A program made the translations under genes and the position numbers. DNA of 64,000 nucleotides, taken from assembly GCA_900104375.1 (NCBI GenBank), contig LT629302.1, forward strand, positions 3,268,480 to 3,332,479. The letters run 5' to 3'. Below are positions 9,954 to 17,135 of the stretch, one piece after another. How positions within the stretch are numbered: the stretch's first letter is position 1; each line of letters opens with the position of its first letter. Under the pieces are notes generated by a model. That model saw only the letters and a list, made by a program, of their open reading frames with translations. It was not told the origin of the DNA and did no database searches. The stretch is from Flavobacteriaceae bacterium MAR_2010_188. GTDB taxonomy: Bacteria > Bacteroidota > Bacteroidia > Flavobacteriales > Flavobacteriaceae.

Positions 9954-10763
9954 CTAGTTAAGAACTTTAGTATTGTAGAATTCTGTATATGGATCAGAAA
10001 ATTCTTCTGGGGCATAATATTCTAATACAGGTTTGCCAGAAGCTTCCATGTGCTTGCTAAGTTCTTCTGGAAGGTCTGCAGAGCCTTTTATAAGAGCATC
10101 AGAATTATTTACGGCAATCTTCATAAGATTGATGTAGGTTGGATCTTCTAACTCCTTTATTTGGTCTTCTTCAATATTATCGAACTTAACCTTATTGATC
10201 ATATTCTTATCTAACGAACCTTCAAAGCTTTGATTGTATACCGAAGTAACAATTTTACTTTCGGTAAAAAGAGGTTCGTCTTTGTAATATTGTTTCATAT
10301 ACAAAGGAAGAAGCGAAGCCAACCACCCATTTACGTGAATAATATCAGGAGCCCAGTTCAATTTTTTAACTGTTTCTATAACTCCTTTAGCAAAGAAAAT
10401 TGCTCGCTCGTCATTATCGGAAAACAATTTACCTTCCTCATCGGTCAGGGTTGCTTTTCGTTTAAAGTAATCTTCGTTGTCTATAAAGTAAACTTGGATT
10501 CTTTCTTTAGGAATAGATGCAACCTTTATAATTAAGGGCATATCTAAATCGTTGATTACCAAATTAATCCCAGAAAGTCTAATGACTTCATGCAGTTGGT
10601 GACGGCGCTCGTTAATATTTCCATATCTGGGCATGAAAATCCGTATTTGCCCTCCTTGTTTGTTTACCATCCGTGGAGCCTCAAATGACATTGATGAAAT
10701 TTCTGTCTCCGGTAAATATGGTACAACCTCAGATGACACATACAAAATTCTCTTATCTTTCAT
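9954..10763 (-). CDS. half-length glycogen/starch-synthase-like protein
   Basis: It resembles the N-terminal Rossmann domain of GT5 glycogen synthase: KRILYVSSEVVPYLPETEIS at the start and WAPDIIHVNGWLASLLPLYM near residue 125. It is only 269 residues from ATG 10763 (GlgA has about 480), so the C-terminal ADP-glucose domain is absent, and the KTGGL loop that binds the nucleotide sugar is replaced by PETEIS. I chose ATG 10763 over the in-frame ATG at 10799 because a -7 box at 10801-10808 would start transcription near 10795. Databases usually call it glycogen synthase; classical synthase activity is doubtful. First gene of the glmS operon. Confidence 0.75.
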   Translation of the reverse strand: MKDKRILYVSSEVVPYLPETEISSMSFEAPRMVNKQGGQIRIFMPRYGNINERRHQLHEVIRLSGINLVINDLDMPLIIKVASIPKERIQVYFIDNEDYFKRKATLTDEEGKLFSDNDERAIFFAKGVIETVKKLNWAPDIIHVNGWLASLLPLYMKQYYKDEPLFTESKIVTSVYNQSFEGSLDKNMINKVKFDNIEEDQIKELEDPTYINLMKIAVNNSDALIKGSADLPEELSKHMEASGKPVLEYYAPEEFSDPYTEFYNTKVLN

Positions 10764-10800
10764 AAAATCCCTCGTTTTAAATATTAAAAATAAAAACATG

Positions 10801-11721: not shown

Positions 11722-11734
11722 ATTTTATTTGCTA

Positions 11735-12085
11735 ATGCAAGTTCAAGTAGTAAAATCAAAAATCCACAGAATTAAAGTCACCGGCGCCGATCTTAATTAC
11801 ATCGGAAGCATAACCATTGACGAAGATTTAATGGATGCTGCTAATATTATTCAAGGTGAAAAAGTTCAGGTTGTAAATAATAGCAACGGAGAACGTTTGG
11901 ATACCTACGTAATTCCTGGTGCAAGAGGTAGTGGCGAAATTACCTTAAATGGTGCTGCCGCTAGAAAGGTTGCAGTTGGTGACGTGCTAATTCTTATAAC
12001 TTACGGATTCATGGACATGGAAGAGGCTAGGACTTTTAAACCTGCCCTTGTCTTTCCCGATGAGAACACCAATCTTCTTAAATAA
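11735..12085 (+). CDS. panD: aspartate 1-decarboxylase
   Basis: A pyruvoyl enzyme that decarboxylates aspartate to beta-alanine, the co-substrate of PanC. With ATG 11735 the protein is 116 residues and begins [20 protein letters not shown], the normal family start; a TTG six bases upstream is in frame but less likely. The self-cleavage site is Gly24-Ser25 in NYIGSIT, where Ser25 becomes the pyruvoyl group. [17 protein letters not shown] and [12 protein letters not shown] are also family motifs. Second gene of the panC operon. Confidence 0.96.
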
Positions 12086-12091
12086 ACCGTT

Positions 12092-13063
12092 TTGAATTCT
12101 AAAACCAAAAAAGCGTTACGGATTGTAATTCCTTTATTGTTAGCTATTTTCTTTGGTTGGTATACGTTTTCAAAACTTCCCGTTTCAGAAATCATTCCTT
12201 ATTTTAAATCTGCCAATTATAGTTGGATTGTAGCAGGGGTTTTGTTTGGTGGTTTAAGTCATCTTTCTAGAGCTTACCGATGGCAGTTTCTATTAGAGCC
12301 GATGGGCTATAAGGTTAAATTGCCTAATAGTATTATGGCGGTTTTCGTTGCCTATCTTTCAAATTATGGTATCCCAAGGTCAGGAGAAGTTCTTCGAGCT
12401 GCAGTTCTTACTAATTATGAAGGCGTTCCATTCGAAAAAAGTTTTGGAACTATTGTAGCAGAGCGAATGGCAGATATGGCGGTAATGCTTCTAATCATCG
12501 CGATTACCTTGGTGTTAGAATTCAAGTTTATATACGATATCCTCGCGCAATCAATAAACCCAACGAGATTGCTTATTTATCTTGCTATTGTTATTATTGG
12601 TGGCGTGGTGCTATTCAAAATATTAAAAAGGAGCCAATCCAAATTCGCACTTAAGGTCAAAAAGTTTTTAAAAGGCTTAGTTGAAGGTATTTTGAGCATA
12701 TTTAAGATGAAGAAAAAATGGCCATTTATCTTTCATACTCTCTTTATTTGGCTCATGTATATTTTGATGTTTTACGTAACGTCATTCGCGTTACCAGAAT
12801 TAGATAACCTTTCTATCGGTGCGGTTTTAATTGCTTTTATCGCTGCAACTTTTACCATTGCAGCAACCAACGGCGGAATTTTCTTTTATCCCGCAGCTGT
12901 GATGTCGGCACTTATGTTATTCGATTTACCTAAAGAACCGAGTTATGCATTTGGTTGGATTATGTGGTCGGCACAGACTTTGCTGATTATAATTTGTGGT
13001 ATAATCTCCTTTGTTTATTTACCGATTTATAATAGGAAGAAAATATCGGTGAAAGAATCCTAG
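12092..13063 (+). CDS. lysylphosphatidylglycerol synthase-type flippase-domain membrane protein
   Basis: A 323-residue integral membrane protein with about eight hydrophobic segments. It resembles the transmembrane domain of MprF/AglD-type proteins (family UPF0104): SHLSRAYRWQFLLEPMGYKV, YGIPRSGEVLRAAVL and AATNGGIFFYPAAVMSALML. Family members lacking the synthase domain are thought to move lipids or glycolipids across the membrane; the substrate here is unknown. The start is TTG at 12092, six bases after panD, so it is in the pan operon, a placement common in flavobacteria that says little about function. Confidence 0.8.
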   Translation: MNSKTKKALRIVIPLLLAIFFGWYTFSKLPVSEIIPYFKSANYSWIVAGVLFGGLSHLSRAYRWQFLLEPMGYKVKLPNSIMAVFVAYLSNYGIPRSGEVLRAAVLTNYEGVPFEKSFGTIVAERMADMAVMLLIIAITLVLEFKFIYDILAQSINPTRLLIYLAIVIIGGVVLFKILKRSQSKFALKVKKFLKGLVEGILSIFKMKKKWPFIFHTLFIWLMYILMFYVTSFALPELDNLSIGAVLIAFIAATFTIAATNGGIFFYPAAVMSALMLFDLPKEPSYAFGWIMWSAQTLLIIICGIISFVYLPIYNRKKISVKES

Positions 13064-13137: not shown

Positions 13138-14289
13138 ATGGTCAAAATCGCCTTTGCCTGTTTAGCATTTCTATTTTTTACTTCTAATAGTGTCGCCCAA
13201 GCCATTTACGAGACTTATAAATCAGATAGGTTACTTCAGTCCCGAGAATTAAAAATACAGCTACCAAGAAATTATGACCGCGATAAAGAAACACAATATC
13301 CTTTGGTCATTGTTTTAGACGGTGATTATCTTTTTGAACCGGTTGTCGGCAATATAGATTATCAATCTTACTGGAATGATATGCCAGAATGTATTGTGGT
13401 GGGCATCAATGAATCCGAATATCGAGATATGGATCTTTCCTATTCAGAACAAAGTGGGCTCCCAATCGATGACGGCGCAAAGTTTTTTGAATTCATAGGG
13501 ATGGAATTGATTCCATACATCCAAGATAAATATAGAGCGTCAAAATTTAGAATCGCGGTGGGCCATGACATGAGTGCCAACTTTATTAATTATTACCTTT
13601 TTAAGGATTATCCAGTCTTTAATGCCTACATAGCTCTGAGTCCTGATTATGCGCCGGATCTTATTAATAAATTACATCAGCGCTTGCCGCTATTACAGTC
13701 AGATACTTTTTATTATTTAGCGACTAGCGAAGGGGATATACCGGCGCTTAAAAAAGATATTGAAACCGCGAATACTTCACTTAAAAGTATCAGTAATGAA
13801 AAGTTCCATTATCGCTATGATGCCTTTGCAGATGCAAATCACTATTCATTGGTAGGTCAAGGAATACCTAGAGCTTTAAATGCGATTTTTGAATTGTACA
13901 AACCAATCGATGCGACCGAATATAAAGATGAAATGCTTACTTACACTGGATCGCCGATGGAATATCTTTTGAATAAGTACGAAAACATCAAGAATTTTTA
14001 TGGCTTCGAGAAAAAGGTCATCGAAAATGATATTAGGGCCGTGGCTGCTGCCGCTAAAAAGAAAGATGACATTGAAGCGGTTAAGGAGCTTTCGAAATAT
14101 GCTAAACAAGAGTTTTCTGATTCCATGATTAGCGCCTATTACCAAGGACTTTATTTTGAAATGGACGGCAATCTTAAAAAGGCGCTCAATTATTATCAAT
14201 CCGGTCTATTGCTTAAAGCGTCTCAATTCATTAATAAGGAAGTTCTGCTAGATAAGATTTACGACCTTAAGGACGAAAAGGATGACTAA
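13138..14289 (+). CDS. esterase-D-fold protein lacking the catalytic serine (copy 1)
   Basis: A secreted 383-residue protein. The signal peptide ends in NSVAQ and is followed by an alpha/beta-hydrolase domain of the putative esterase (PF00756) type: ELKIQLPRNYDRD, YPLVIVLDGDYLF and YIALSPDY. The nucleophile elbow, normally GHSxGG, reads GHDMSAN (residues 142-148), so Asp144 stands where Ser should be and both glycines are lost. A candidate His remains in NHYSLV. The C-terminal 100 residues look helical with a TPR-like unit (YYQGLYFEMDGNLKKALNYY). A tandem homologue follows. It is either inactive (scaffold or binder) or uses another chemistry; I cannot say which. Confidence 0.7.
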   Translation: MVKIAFACLAFLFFTSNSVAQAIYETYKSDRLLQSRELKIQLPRNYDRDKETQYPLVIVLDGDYLFEPVVGNIDYQSYWNDMPECIVVGINESEYRDMDLSYSEQSGLPIDDGAKFFEFIGMELIPYIQDKYRASKFRIAVGHDMSANFINYYLFKDYPVFNAYIALSPDYAPDLINKLHQRLPLLQSDTFYYLATSEGDIPALKKDIETANTSLKSISNEKFHYRYDAFADANHYSLVGQGIPRALNAIFELYKPIDATEYKDEMLTYTGSPMEYLLNKYENIKNFYGFEKKVIENDIRAVAAAAKKKDDIEAVKELSKYAKQEFSDSMISAYYQGLYFEMDGNLKKALNYYQSGLLLKASQFINKEVLLDKIYDLKDEKDD

Positions 14290-14310
14290 AAAATACACTT
14301 TATCGAAAAT

Positions 14311-14339
14311 ATTCGTGTTTTAACATTAAAAACACGAAT
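14311..14339 (+). terminator. 11-base-pair hairpin between the two esterase-like genes
   Basis: ATTCGTGTTTT (14311-14321) pairs perfectly with AAAACACGAAT (14329-14339) around a 7-base loop. The U-tract after it is short (TTTAG), so it may be a weak terminator, an attenuator or an mRNA-stabilising hairpin. Confidence 0.5.
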
Positions 14340-14363
14340 TTAGTTCTCCTTAACCTACCAGTA

Positions 14364-15542
14364 ATGAGAACGACTTTCACTTTATTTTTTTTCGCAGTTA
14401 CCATAATTTTCAACTCTTTTGGTCAGACCGAAAAATTCGAATCCCGTAAGCTTAACTCCGTAAGGGGTTTAAAGATTAAACTTCCAAAAAATTATGATCC
14501 AGACTCTGGATTAAAGCATCCATTAATCGTTGTTTTTGATGCCGATTACCTGTTTGGACCTGTAGTGGGGCAGACAGAATTCCAAACCTATTTTGACCAG
14601 ATGCCTAGCTCTATTATCGTGGGCATCGTTCAAGGGAACGAGCGTTTTTATGATAGCTATTTTGATGAAATATCAGGTCTCCCATTAGAAACAGGTGCAA
14701 GATTTTATGAGTTCGTAGCGCAAGAGTTACTTCCATACATTGATTCTAAATACAACACCAGTAAATTCAGAGTTGCGGTAGGTCATAACATTATGGGCAA
14801 TTTTATCAATTCGTTTCTTTTAAAAGAAGATCCATTGTTTAAGGCATATATCAATATCAGTCCAGACTTCACCGGAGAAATGGGGTCTAACGTAGCACAA
14901 CGATTGTCTTATTGCAAACAAGATATCTTTTATTATATGGCGACCAGTAAAGCAGATATAACTTCTATCAGAAAATCGATCATTAATACCCATGTAAAGA
15001 TCGCTGATATCGAAAACGACCATTTGACTTATTATTTTGATGACTTTACGGAACAGACCCATAATGGTCTGGTAACTGCTGCGGTTTCAAAAGCCATGGA
15101 TAAAATCTTTGATATCTATCAGCCTTTAAGTGAAAAGGAATTGACCGAAAAAGTCGCCAAGTATGATGGAACCCTTGACCAATATCTGATTAATCGTTAT
15201 AGTCGTATTGAAGACTTGTTCGGAATCGAAAAGAAAATCTCAGAAGAAGAATTTGAAAAGGTTATTGCAGTAGCCGAAAAACGAGAAGATTTAGAGTCAT
15301 TACAAAAAATAGGAAAACTGGCATTAAAGCAGGACCCAACTTCACTTTTGGGGACTTATTATTTGGCTTTACATGCCGAGAAATCAGGAAAGCCAAAAAA
15401 AGCAGCGAAATTATACGATGCGGCTCTGGCAATGGATCCAACTTCCCATATTGATAAAGACTTTATTCTATCTAAAGTTGAAGGTTTAAATCTTGCAACT
15501 ACAGACGAAGAAATTGACGATGAGGACATCGATGATAACTAG
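14364..15542 (+). CDS. esterase-D-fold protein lacking the catalytic serine (copy 2)
   Basis: A 392-residue secreted paralogue of the preceding gene, with the same order: signal peptide ending NSFGQ, hydrolase domain (LKIKLPKNYDPDSG, HPLIVVFDADYLF, YINISPDF) and TPR-like C-terminus (YYLALHAEKSGKPKKAAKLY). The nucleophile elbow reads GHNIMGN, so Asn142 replaces Ser. The tail is very acidic (TDEEIDDEDIDDN). Because the two copies differ at the nucleophile position (Asp and Asn) yet keep the fold, the loss of Ser seems to predate or accompany the duplication. Function is unknown; hydrolase annotation from the fold alone would mislead. Confidence 0.7.
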   Translation: MRTTFTLFFFAVTIIFNSFGQTEKFESRKLNSVRGLKIKLPKNYDPDSGLKHPLIVVFDADYLFGPVVGQTEFQTYFDQMPSSIIVGIVQGNERFYDSYFDEISGLPLETGARFYEFVAQELLPYIDSKYNTSKFRVAVGHNIMGNFINSFLLKEDPLFKAYINISPDFTGEMGSNVAQRLSYCKQDIFYYMATSKADITSIRKSIINTHVKIADIENDHLTYYFDDFTEQTHNGLVTAAVSKAMDKIFDIYQPLSEKELTEKVAKYDGTLDQYLINRYSRIEDLFGIEKKISEEEFEKVIAVAEKREDLESLQKIGKLALKQDPTSLLGTYYLALHAEKSGKPKKAAKLYDAALAMDPTSHIDKDFILSKVEGLNLATTDEEIDDEDIDDN

Positions 15543-15776: not shown

Positions 15777-17135
15777 ATGGCTAAGATAAAAACCACTTTT
15801 TTTTGTCAAAATTGCGGAACACAATACTCTAAATGGCAAGGACAATGTACTGCCTGCAAGGAATGGAATACCATTGTGGAAGAAGTAATTCAGAAAGAGG
15901 AAAAATCTACCTGGAAAACTCCAACATCACCCTTAAAAAGAGCATCATTACCGCTTAGAATCAACGAAATTGATACTTCCCAAGATACGCGATTAGACAC
16001 ATTAGATTCCGAATTTAATCGGGTGCTTGGCGGTGGGTTGGTTCATGGTTCAATGACTTTATTGGGTGGAGAACCGGGAATTGGTAAGAGCACGTTAATG
16101 CTTCAAATTGCACTAAAACTTCCTTATAAAACACTCTATGTTTCAGGTGAAGAAAGTCAAAAACAGATTAAGATGCGAGCAGATCGTATTGAACCTAATA
16201 GTACCTCTTGCTATATTCTTACCGAAACCAAGACTCAAAATATTTTCAAACAAATTGAACAGCTAGAACCAGATGTATTGGTCATTGATTCAATACAAAC
16301 CCTTCACAGCGATTATATTGACTCTTCTGCAGGCAGTATTTCTCAGGTTAAGGAATGCACAACCGAGCTTATTAAATTTGCAAAGGAAACAGCGACACCA
16401 GTTATTCTGATTGGGCATATTACAAAAGAGGGCAGCATTGCAGGTCCAAAAATTCTGGAACATATGGTAGATACCGTACTCCAATTTGAAGGAGATCGCA
16501 ATCATGTTTTCAGGATTCTTCGAGCAAATAAAAATAGATTTGGATCTACTAACGAATTGGGCATCTACGAAATGCAAGGTTCAGGTTTAAGGGAAGTAAG
16601 CAACCCCAGTGAAATATTGATTTCCCAAAAAGATGAAGACTTAAGTGGTAATGCCGTCGCTTCGACCTTGGAAGGGATGAGGTCGTTACTTATTGAAGTT
16701 CAGGCCTTGGTAAGTTCTGCAGTATATGGAACACCTCAACGTTCGGCAACAGGTTTTAATTCTAAACGCTTGAATATGTTGTTGGCGGTTTTAGAGAAGC
16801 GGGCAGGATTTAGACTTGGTACCAAAGATGTTTTCCTAAATATTACTGGCGGTATTACGGTAGACGACCCGGCAATCGATTTGGCAGTGGTAGCCGCAAT
16901 ATTATCTTCTAATGAAGATGTGGCATTGAGCCAAGACATTTGTTTTGCGGCTGAGGTTGGACTTTCTGGTGAAATTAGACCTGTGCAAAGAATAGAACAA
17001 CGAATACTGGAAGCTGAAAAGCTTGGATTTTCCACGATATATGTTTCGGCTTATAACAAAATCGGACTTCAGAATACAGCCATTAAAGTGCAGCTGATTA
17101 CTAAAATTGAAGATTTGGTGGCGTATATTTGTTAA
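15777..17135 (+). CDS. radA: DNA repair protein RadA (Sms)
   Basis: A RecA-related ATPase that drives branch migration in recombinational repair. The 452 residues show all family parts: an N-terminal C4 zinc finger (CQNCGTQYSKWQGQCTACKE), Walker A GGEPGIGKST at about residues 97-106, the RadA-specific NKNRFGS motif near 247, and a Lon-like C-terminal domain (DVFLNITGGITVDDPAIDLA, AEVGLSGEIRPV). The ATG at 15777 is well placed. The gene is followed directly by the palindromic repeat array starting at 17141. Confidence 0.97.
   Translation: MAKIKTTFFCQNCGTQYSKWQGQCTACKEWNTIVEEVIQKEEKSTWKTPTSPLKRASLPLRINEIDTSQDTRLDTLDSEFNRVLGGGLVHGSMTLLGGEPGIGKSTLMLQIALKLPYKTLYVSGEESQKQIKMRADRIEPNSTSCYILTETKTQNIFKQIEQLEPDVLVIDSIQTLHSDYIDSSAGSISQVKECTTELIKFAKETATPVILIGHITKEGSIAGPKILEHMVDTVLQFEGDRNHVFRILRANKNRFGSTNELGIYEMQGSGLREVSNPSEILISQKDEDLSGNAVASTLEGMRSLLIEVQALVSSAVYGTPQRSATGFNSKRLNMLLAVLEKRAGFRLGTKDVFLNITGGITVDDPAIDLAVVAAILSSNEDVALSQDICFAAEVGLSGEIRPVQRIEQRILEAEKLGFSTIYVSAYNKIGLQNTAIKVQLITKIEDLVAYIC

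Follow-up and report, generated by a model that had tools for sequence, protein, structure and literature searches.

A tandem pair of exported esterase-fold proteins in a Flavobacteriaceae genome lacks the catalytic serine and is probably an ancient pseudoenzyme pair

The window, a stretch of 64,000 nucleotides of contig LT629302.1 from Flavobacteriaceae bacterium MAR_2010_188, holds two neighbouring genes whose products resemble secreted esterases, but the serine that should sit at the nucleophile elbow is replaced in both. This raises the question of what an esterase fold without its nucleophile is kept for. The original prediction was that both copies serve a function other than ester hydrolysis, either binding or scaffolding or, in copy 1, an Asp-based chemistry. 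The features at issue are the following.

13138..14289, + strand: copy 1, putative secreted pseudo-esterase, 383 aa (open reading frame, Pfam, phmmer, model)
13561..13581, + strand: former nucleophile elbow of copy 1, GHDMSAN, residues 142-148 (sequence, model, column statistics)
13567-13569, + strand: codon of Asp144 in the copy 1 elbow
13735..13737, + strand: Asp200 of copy 1, triad-acid position after the next-to-last strand (model; 85% in the non-redundant set)
13840..13842, + strand: His235 of copy 1, triad-histidine position after the last strand (model; 81% in the non-redundant set)
14364..15542, + strand: copy 2, putative secreted pseudo-esterase, 392 aa, architecture as in copy 1 (open reading frame, Pfam, phmmer, model)
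14781..14801, + strand: former nucleophile elbow of copy 2, GHNIMGN, residues 140-146 (sequence, model)
14787-14789, + strand: codon of Asn142 in the copy 2 elbow
14955..14957, + strand: Asp198 of copy 2, acid position (alignment, model)
15060..15062, + strand: His233 of copy 2, histidine position (alignment, model)

Both reading frames are intact and start with a signal peptide that can be read from the sequence, as had been predicted, and the two products are 38% identical. In copy 1, the signal peptide is followed by an esterase fold (residues ~22-255) and a helical, TPR-like tail (~259-382); the acidic C-terminus of copy 2, modelled with low confidence, is probably disordered. Both copies match PF00756 (Esterase), with 37.5 bits for copy 1 and 37.8 bits for copy 2 (Pfam cut-off 22), and their AlphaFold2 models reach pLDDT values of 92.4 and 90.3, respectively. 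Compared with GHSxGG, the motif of serine esterases at the elbow, the catalytic Ser of GxSxG is absent from both proteins. In the models, Asp144 of copy 1 is flanked by strand 134-143 and helix 145-155; for Asn142 of copy 2, the flanking elements are strand 132-141 and helix 143-153. As both residues occupy a strand-elbow-helix arrangement, the models rule out that the true elbow lies elsewhere in the chain. The acid and histidine of the triad are found at their canonical positions in both models (Asp200/His235 and Asp198/His233), which agrees with the prediction that the fold and a candidate His remain. As for the predicted TPR-like C-terminus, this region is all-helical and TPR-like in both models, but the Pfam match is weak in copy 2 (TPR_2, 22.1 bits against a cut-off of 27, E 1.5e-4) and not significant in copy 1.

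Of 383 aligned sequences, 369 have Gln at position 21, a Gln+1 context behind the signal peptide. The Q-rule of Bacteroidota describes Gln at +1 after cleavage by signal peptidase I (PMC5837995). Reading both signal peptides by eye, we saw no lipobox. Taken together, signal peptide, Gln+1 and the lack of a visible lipobox make it most likely that both copies are soluble periplasmic proteins.

We then asked whether the substitution is peculiar to this genome. The family is present in 253 of 299 sampled Flavobacteriaceae genomes at E<=1e-10 (three of these are weak, generic matches), and match scores fall sharply outside the Flavobacteriaceae. Ser is missing from the elbow in 380 of the 382 family members collected from Flavobacteriaceae. 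Across all 382, the position is held by Asp (250), Gly (90), Asn (27), Glu (6), Thr (2) and Ser (2); Arg, Leu, Ala, Gln and others each occur once. By comparison, 41 of 42 related esterases used as outgroup carry Ser. Because the absence of Ser is conserved throughout the family (380/382 vs 1/42 in the outgroup), chance is excluded, and a local mutation, the refutation that an alignment of orthologues might have delivered, is ruled out. The same alignment revealed that the Asp and Asn of the two copies are themselves variable. The elbow Gly is strongly conserved.

We built a tree from 74 non-redundant family members plus 8 outgroup sequences, using a quick search and SH-aLRT as the only measure of support. 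It recovered the family as a clade with support of 100; many inner forks of the tree are open. On this tree, parsimony requires two changes between Ser and non-Ser, namely one loss on the stem and one reappearance, vs 22 changes in the identity of the elbow residue. This suggests that after a single loss the site drifted among D/G/N/E/T/Q/L/A/R, as it would if constraint on the elbow residue was relaxed once Ser had been lost in the ancestor. The reconstruction thus places the loss of Ser in the family ancestor, after the split from Ser-bearing esterase-TPR proteins. The reappearance concerns L288 (97-1257, - strand, genome G096), the sole full-length member with an elbow Ser (GHSFTANF, codon TCG), which also has the Asp and His. 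A smaller-sample tree had put L288 near the base of the family, a placement that was overturned once nearer relatives were added. With these included, L288 nests among members with Asp or Gly at the elbow, which makes a late reappearance of Ser more likely; its Ser-Asp-His triad may have been regained.

Median dN/dS was 0.048 for copy 1 and 0.047 for copy 2, calculated from the 7 close pairs per copy that were left after many pairs with saturated dS had been omitted. Values for neighbouring genes were 0.020 (panD), 0.027 (radA), 0.10 (panC) and 0.13 (bamH). Both copies are under strong purifying selection. Decaying or neutral pseudogenes, a reading to which the lost catalytic residue and the shortening of some extra copies to ~280 aa without a TPR-like tail would lend themselves, are extremely improbable given reading frames that are intact across the family, a dN/dS of ~0.05 and near-universal retention. 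For copies 1 and 2 the selection data refute it; for the short third copies it may hold.

The tandem arrangement of the original prediction is real in this genome; beyond its clade, however, most relatives carry just one copy. Copy 1 and copy 2 fall into two sister groups (support of 97 for the joint clade and 99-100 for each group), and the pair is a derived duplication within one clade. Some genomes, among them Algibacter mikhailovii (L103), have three copies: one belongs to the copy-1 type, one is a short copy-2 type that lacks the TPR-like tail, and the third, of GHGETANF type, resembles the single-copy orthologues. From the tree, it is likely that the ancestor of the clade had three copies, of which the present genome kept two. 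The duplicated copies probably have partly divided roles. Further extra copies of ~280-300 aa, lacking the TPR-like tail and with fast-changing elbows, are possibly degenerating:

L020, 2686-3534: shortened extra copy
L021, 603-1439: shortened extra copy
L022, 596-1420: shortened extra copy
L023, 2615-3529: shortened extra copy
L024, 590-1480: shortened extra copy

If the genes are maintained, the question remained whether they are maintained as enzymes. The Asp-based chemistry proposed for copy 1 would make Asp144-Asp200-His235 an equivalent of the Asp-His-Asp triad of haloalkane dehalogenases and epoxide hydrolases. In line with this, D-D-H is the commonest combination of elbow, acid and His (195 of 382), and the copy 1 model has acid and His at the canonical positions. 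As a function of the family, however, it is not supported. Asp is confined to about two thirds of the elbows counted above, the members with Gly or Asn there mostly keep D200 and H235, and the second copy in this genome has Asn. Moreover, the large GYDITANF subfamily, in which the Asp is best kept, often lacks the acid (frequently Lys, Glu or a gap), the His (frequently Glu or Asp) or both. Erosion of the acid and His extends to entire lineages, with combinations such as D-K-H, D-E-H, E-E-V and G-K-E, which leaves no single alternative triad common to the family and thereby argues against a family-wide Asp nucleophile. The structure neighbours are siderophore and feruloyl esterases. No dehalogenase appears among the 50 best-ranked structure matches listed, which does not in itself prove the point. 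We consider an Asp-nucleophile hydrolase very unlikely.

The acid and His themselves deserve separate consideration. In the non-redundant set, D200 is kept in 85% and H235 in 81% of sequences, both ranking in the top 16-20% of columns; near-invariance, which a smaller sample had indicated, was dropped after wider sampling. This is more conservation than a wholly abandoned site needs, so the proteins may retain some chemistry or a site for a polar ligand. Together with the Ser-Asp-His of L288, this counts against a non-catalytic reading. One possibility is unconventional catalysis, in which the Asp200-His235 pair and an activated water would tolerate the residue found at 144. We regard this as unlikely: the gene persists in whole lineages that drop both residues (the 4W9R type, with E/E/V, and the basal group L145-L147, L310 and L312), much of the GYD subfamily has lost one or both, and the pair might instead serve packing or hydrogen bonding. 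Elsewhere at the old elbow new residues became fixed, namely N148 (85%) and N151 (92%, both in the non-redundant set), at positions that are mostly Leu and Thr in the Ser-bearing outgroup. It is conceivable, if rather doubtful, that the elbow was rebuilt, with N148/N151 and the often-kept Asp200-His235 forming a new site, either for ligand sensing or for non-serine catalysis, directed at an envelope compound specific to Flavobacteriaceae, and with the two copies tuned to different ligands.

To learn whether the gene neighbourhood points to a partner, we compared the surroundings of the family. The conserved neighbours in the window are as follows.

11729..12085, + strand: panD, conserved neighbour, named by resemblance
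12092..13063, + strand: LPG_synthase_TM flippase-like membrane protein without synthase domain, upstream neighbour
15777..17135, + strand: radA, conserved downstream neighbour, named by resemblance

The order bamH, half starch synthase, panC, panD, flippase-like gene, pseudo-esterase(s), radA recurs in almost every neighbourhood examined. Only a deep lineage (L175, L176 and L177) departs from it; there the pseudo-esterase lies beside menD-like and menB-like genes, named by sequence resemblance, on the opposite strand. Synteny with housekeeping genes may be old gene order and carries little functional information. The presence of SprA, a marker of type 9 secretion and gliding, gave no contrast either, being found in 76 of 80 genomes with or without the pseudo-esterase, and a plasmid search returned generic esterases only.

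The flippase-like gene directly adjoins the pseudo-esterase in most loci examined. In Agrobacterium, the periplasmic alpha/beta hydrolase AcvB, an active Lys-PG hydrolase, is encoded in an operon beside LpiA, an MprF-type lipid synthase/flippase with which it works (PMC13197417). By analogy with this operon, the pseudo-esterase might be an accessory protein of the LPG_synthase_TM protein, since here too an alpha/beta-hydrolase protein is encoded beside an MprF-type membrane protein. However, the neighbour in the window lacks the synthase domain, and the pseudo-esterase does not depend on it: in the Flavobacterium-like genus g128, 11 of 13 genomes tested keep the pseudo-esterase with no match to the membrane protein, five genomes show the reverse, and in G168, G131, G367 and G119 the two genes lie apart. 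The LPG_synthase_TM gene is thus often adjacent but dispensable to the association, and an accessory role modelled on LpiA-AcvB is highly improbable.

The same neighbourhood contains what looks, from its sequence, like a second conserved pseudoenzyme. The half starch synthase beside bamH (window 9954-10799, - strand) consists of the N-terminal GT5 domain alone (280 aa, Pfam). KxGG is the ADP-glucose-binding motif expected in a starch synthase. At this site the protein reads PETEISSMS, a stretch that is nearly invariant in 97/97 aligned neighbours, and its dN/dS is 0.028.

Returning to the two copies, we favour as the probable explanation an ancient pseudoenzyme pair, that is, periplasmic, non-catalytic proteins in which an esterase fold and a TPR-like tail serve binding or scaffolding. 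Both copies combine an esterase domain of the IroE/Fes/BES type with a TPR-like helical tail, and they belong to a family whose common ancestor lost the catalytic Ser. The esterase fold, what was once the pocket region, and the tail would since have formed a binding or scaffolding surface in the cell envelope. In the clade of this genome the gene was duplicated, with both copies kept by purifying selection. The predicted selection for a non-esterase function is well supported by the single ancestral loss, the near-universal retention, the low dN/dS and the new Asn residues fixed at the old elbow. That copies 1 and 2 do not hydrolyse esters is what their sequences suggest, the signal peptide and Gln+1 point to a periplasmic location, and the binding or scaffold role is reached by elimination.

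Among solved structures, the nearest is 4W9R (Coch_1243 of Capnocytophaga ochracea), which matches over the whole chain (phmmer E 4.1e-53 for copy 1 and 1.3e-39 for copy 2; structural Z 40.5 and 40.4, 357 residues). It shares with the pair the full-length fold (~31% identity in the match at Z 40.5), the esterase domain with helical tail and the lack of a catalytic Ser, but differs in having Glu at the elbow and E/E/V in place of Ser/acid/His. Coch_1243 was the homodimer target T0852 of CASP11 and T94 of CAPRI, described only as a putative esterase (PMC5030136). The crystal contacts of this relative suggest that the two copies are possibly dimeric as well. The open-licence literature searched gave no function for Coch_1243, nor any match for Fjoh_0826 to Fjoh_0830, F. 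johnsoniae tags guessed from the BamH tag Fjoh_0823.

More distant are 3GFF (an IroE-like serine hydrolase), 2QM0 (Bacillus cereus BES) and the enterobactin esterase Fes (PF00756), which share the fold of the esterase domain (Z 23-28); the helical tail is only partly matched by 3GFF, with an alignment up to model residue 309. By title, IroE, BES and Fes are serine hydrolases or siderophore esterases, in contrast to the Ser-less family described here. Ser-bearing esterase-TPR paralogues of Bacteroidota have the same domain order. One of them is encoded in this genome at another locus (L002, G000:C1:2021240) and differs from the copies in its catalytic Ser (GHSFGG), with ~22% identity to copy 1. 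A precedent from another lineage is MPT51, described as a non-catalytic alpha/beta hydrolase (Wilson et al. 2004, as cited in PMC6119806). By this description it is likened to our pair as a secreted alpha/beta-hydrolase fold without nucleophilic Ser. MPT51 is not known to have a TPR-like tail. Non-catalytic alpha/beta hydrolases are therefore already a known kind; what is new, relative to the open-licence literature, is that a family found almost throughout the Flavobacteriaceae, one structure of which is solved, can be read as an ancient pseudoenzyme. On this reading, the Pfam annotation 'Putative esterase' would be corrected and the family removed from esterase mining, and the pseudo-esterase would be an envelope component of most Flavobacteriaceae for which the crystal structure of a relative is already solved.
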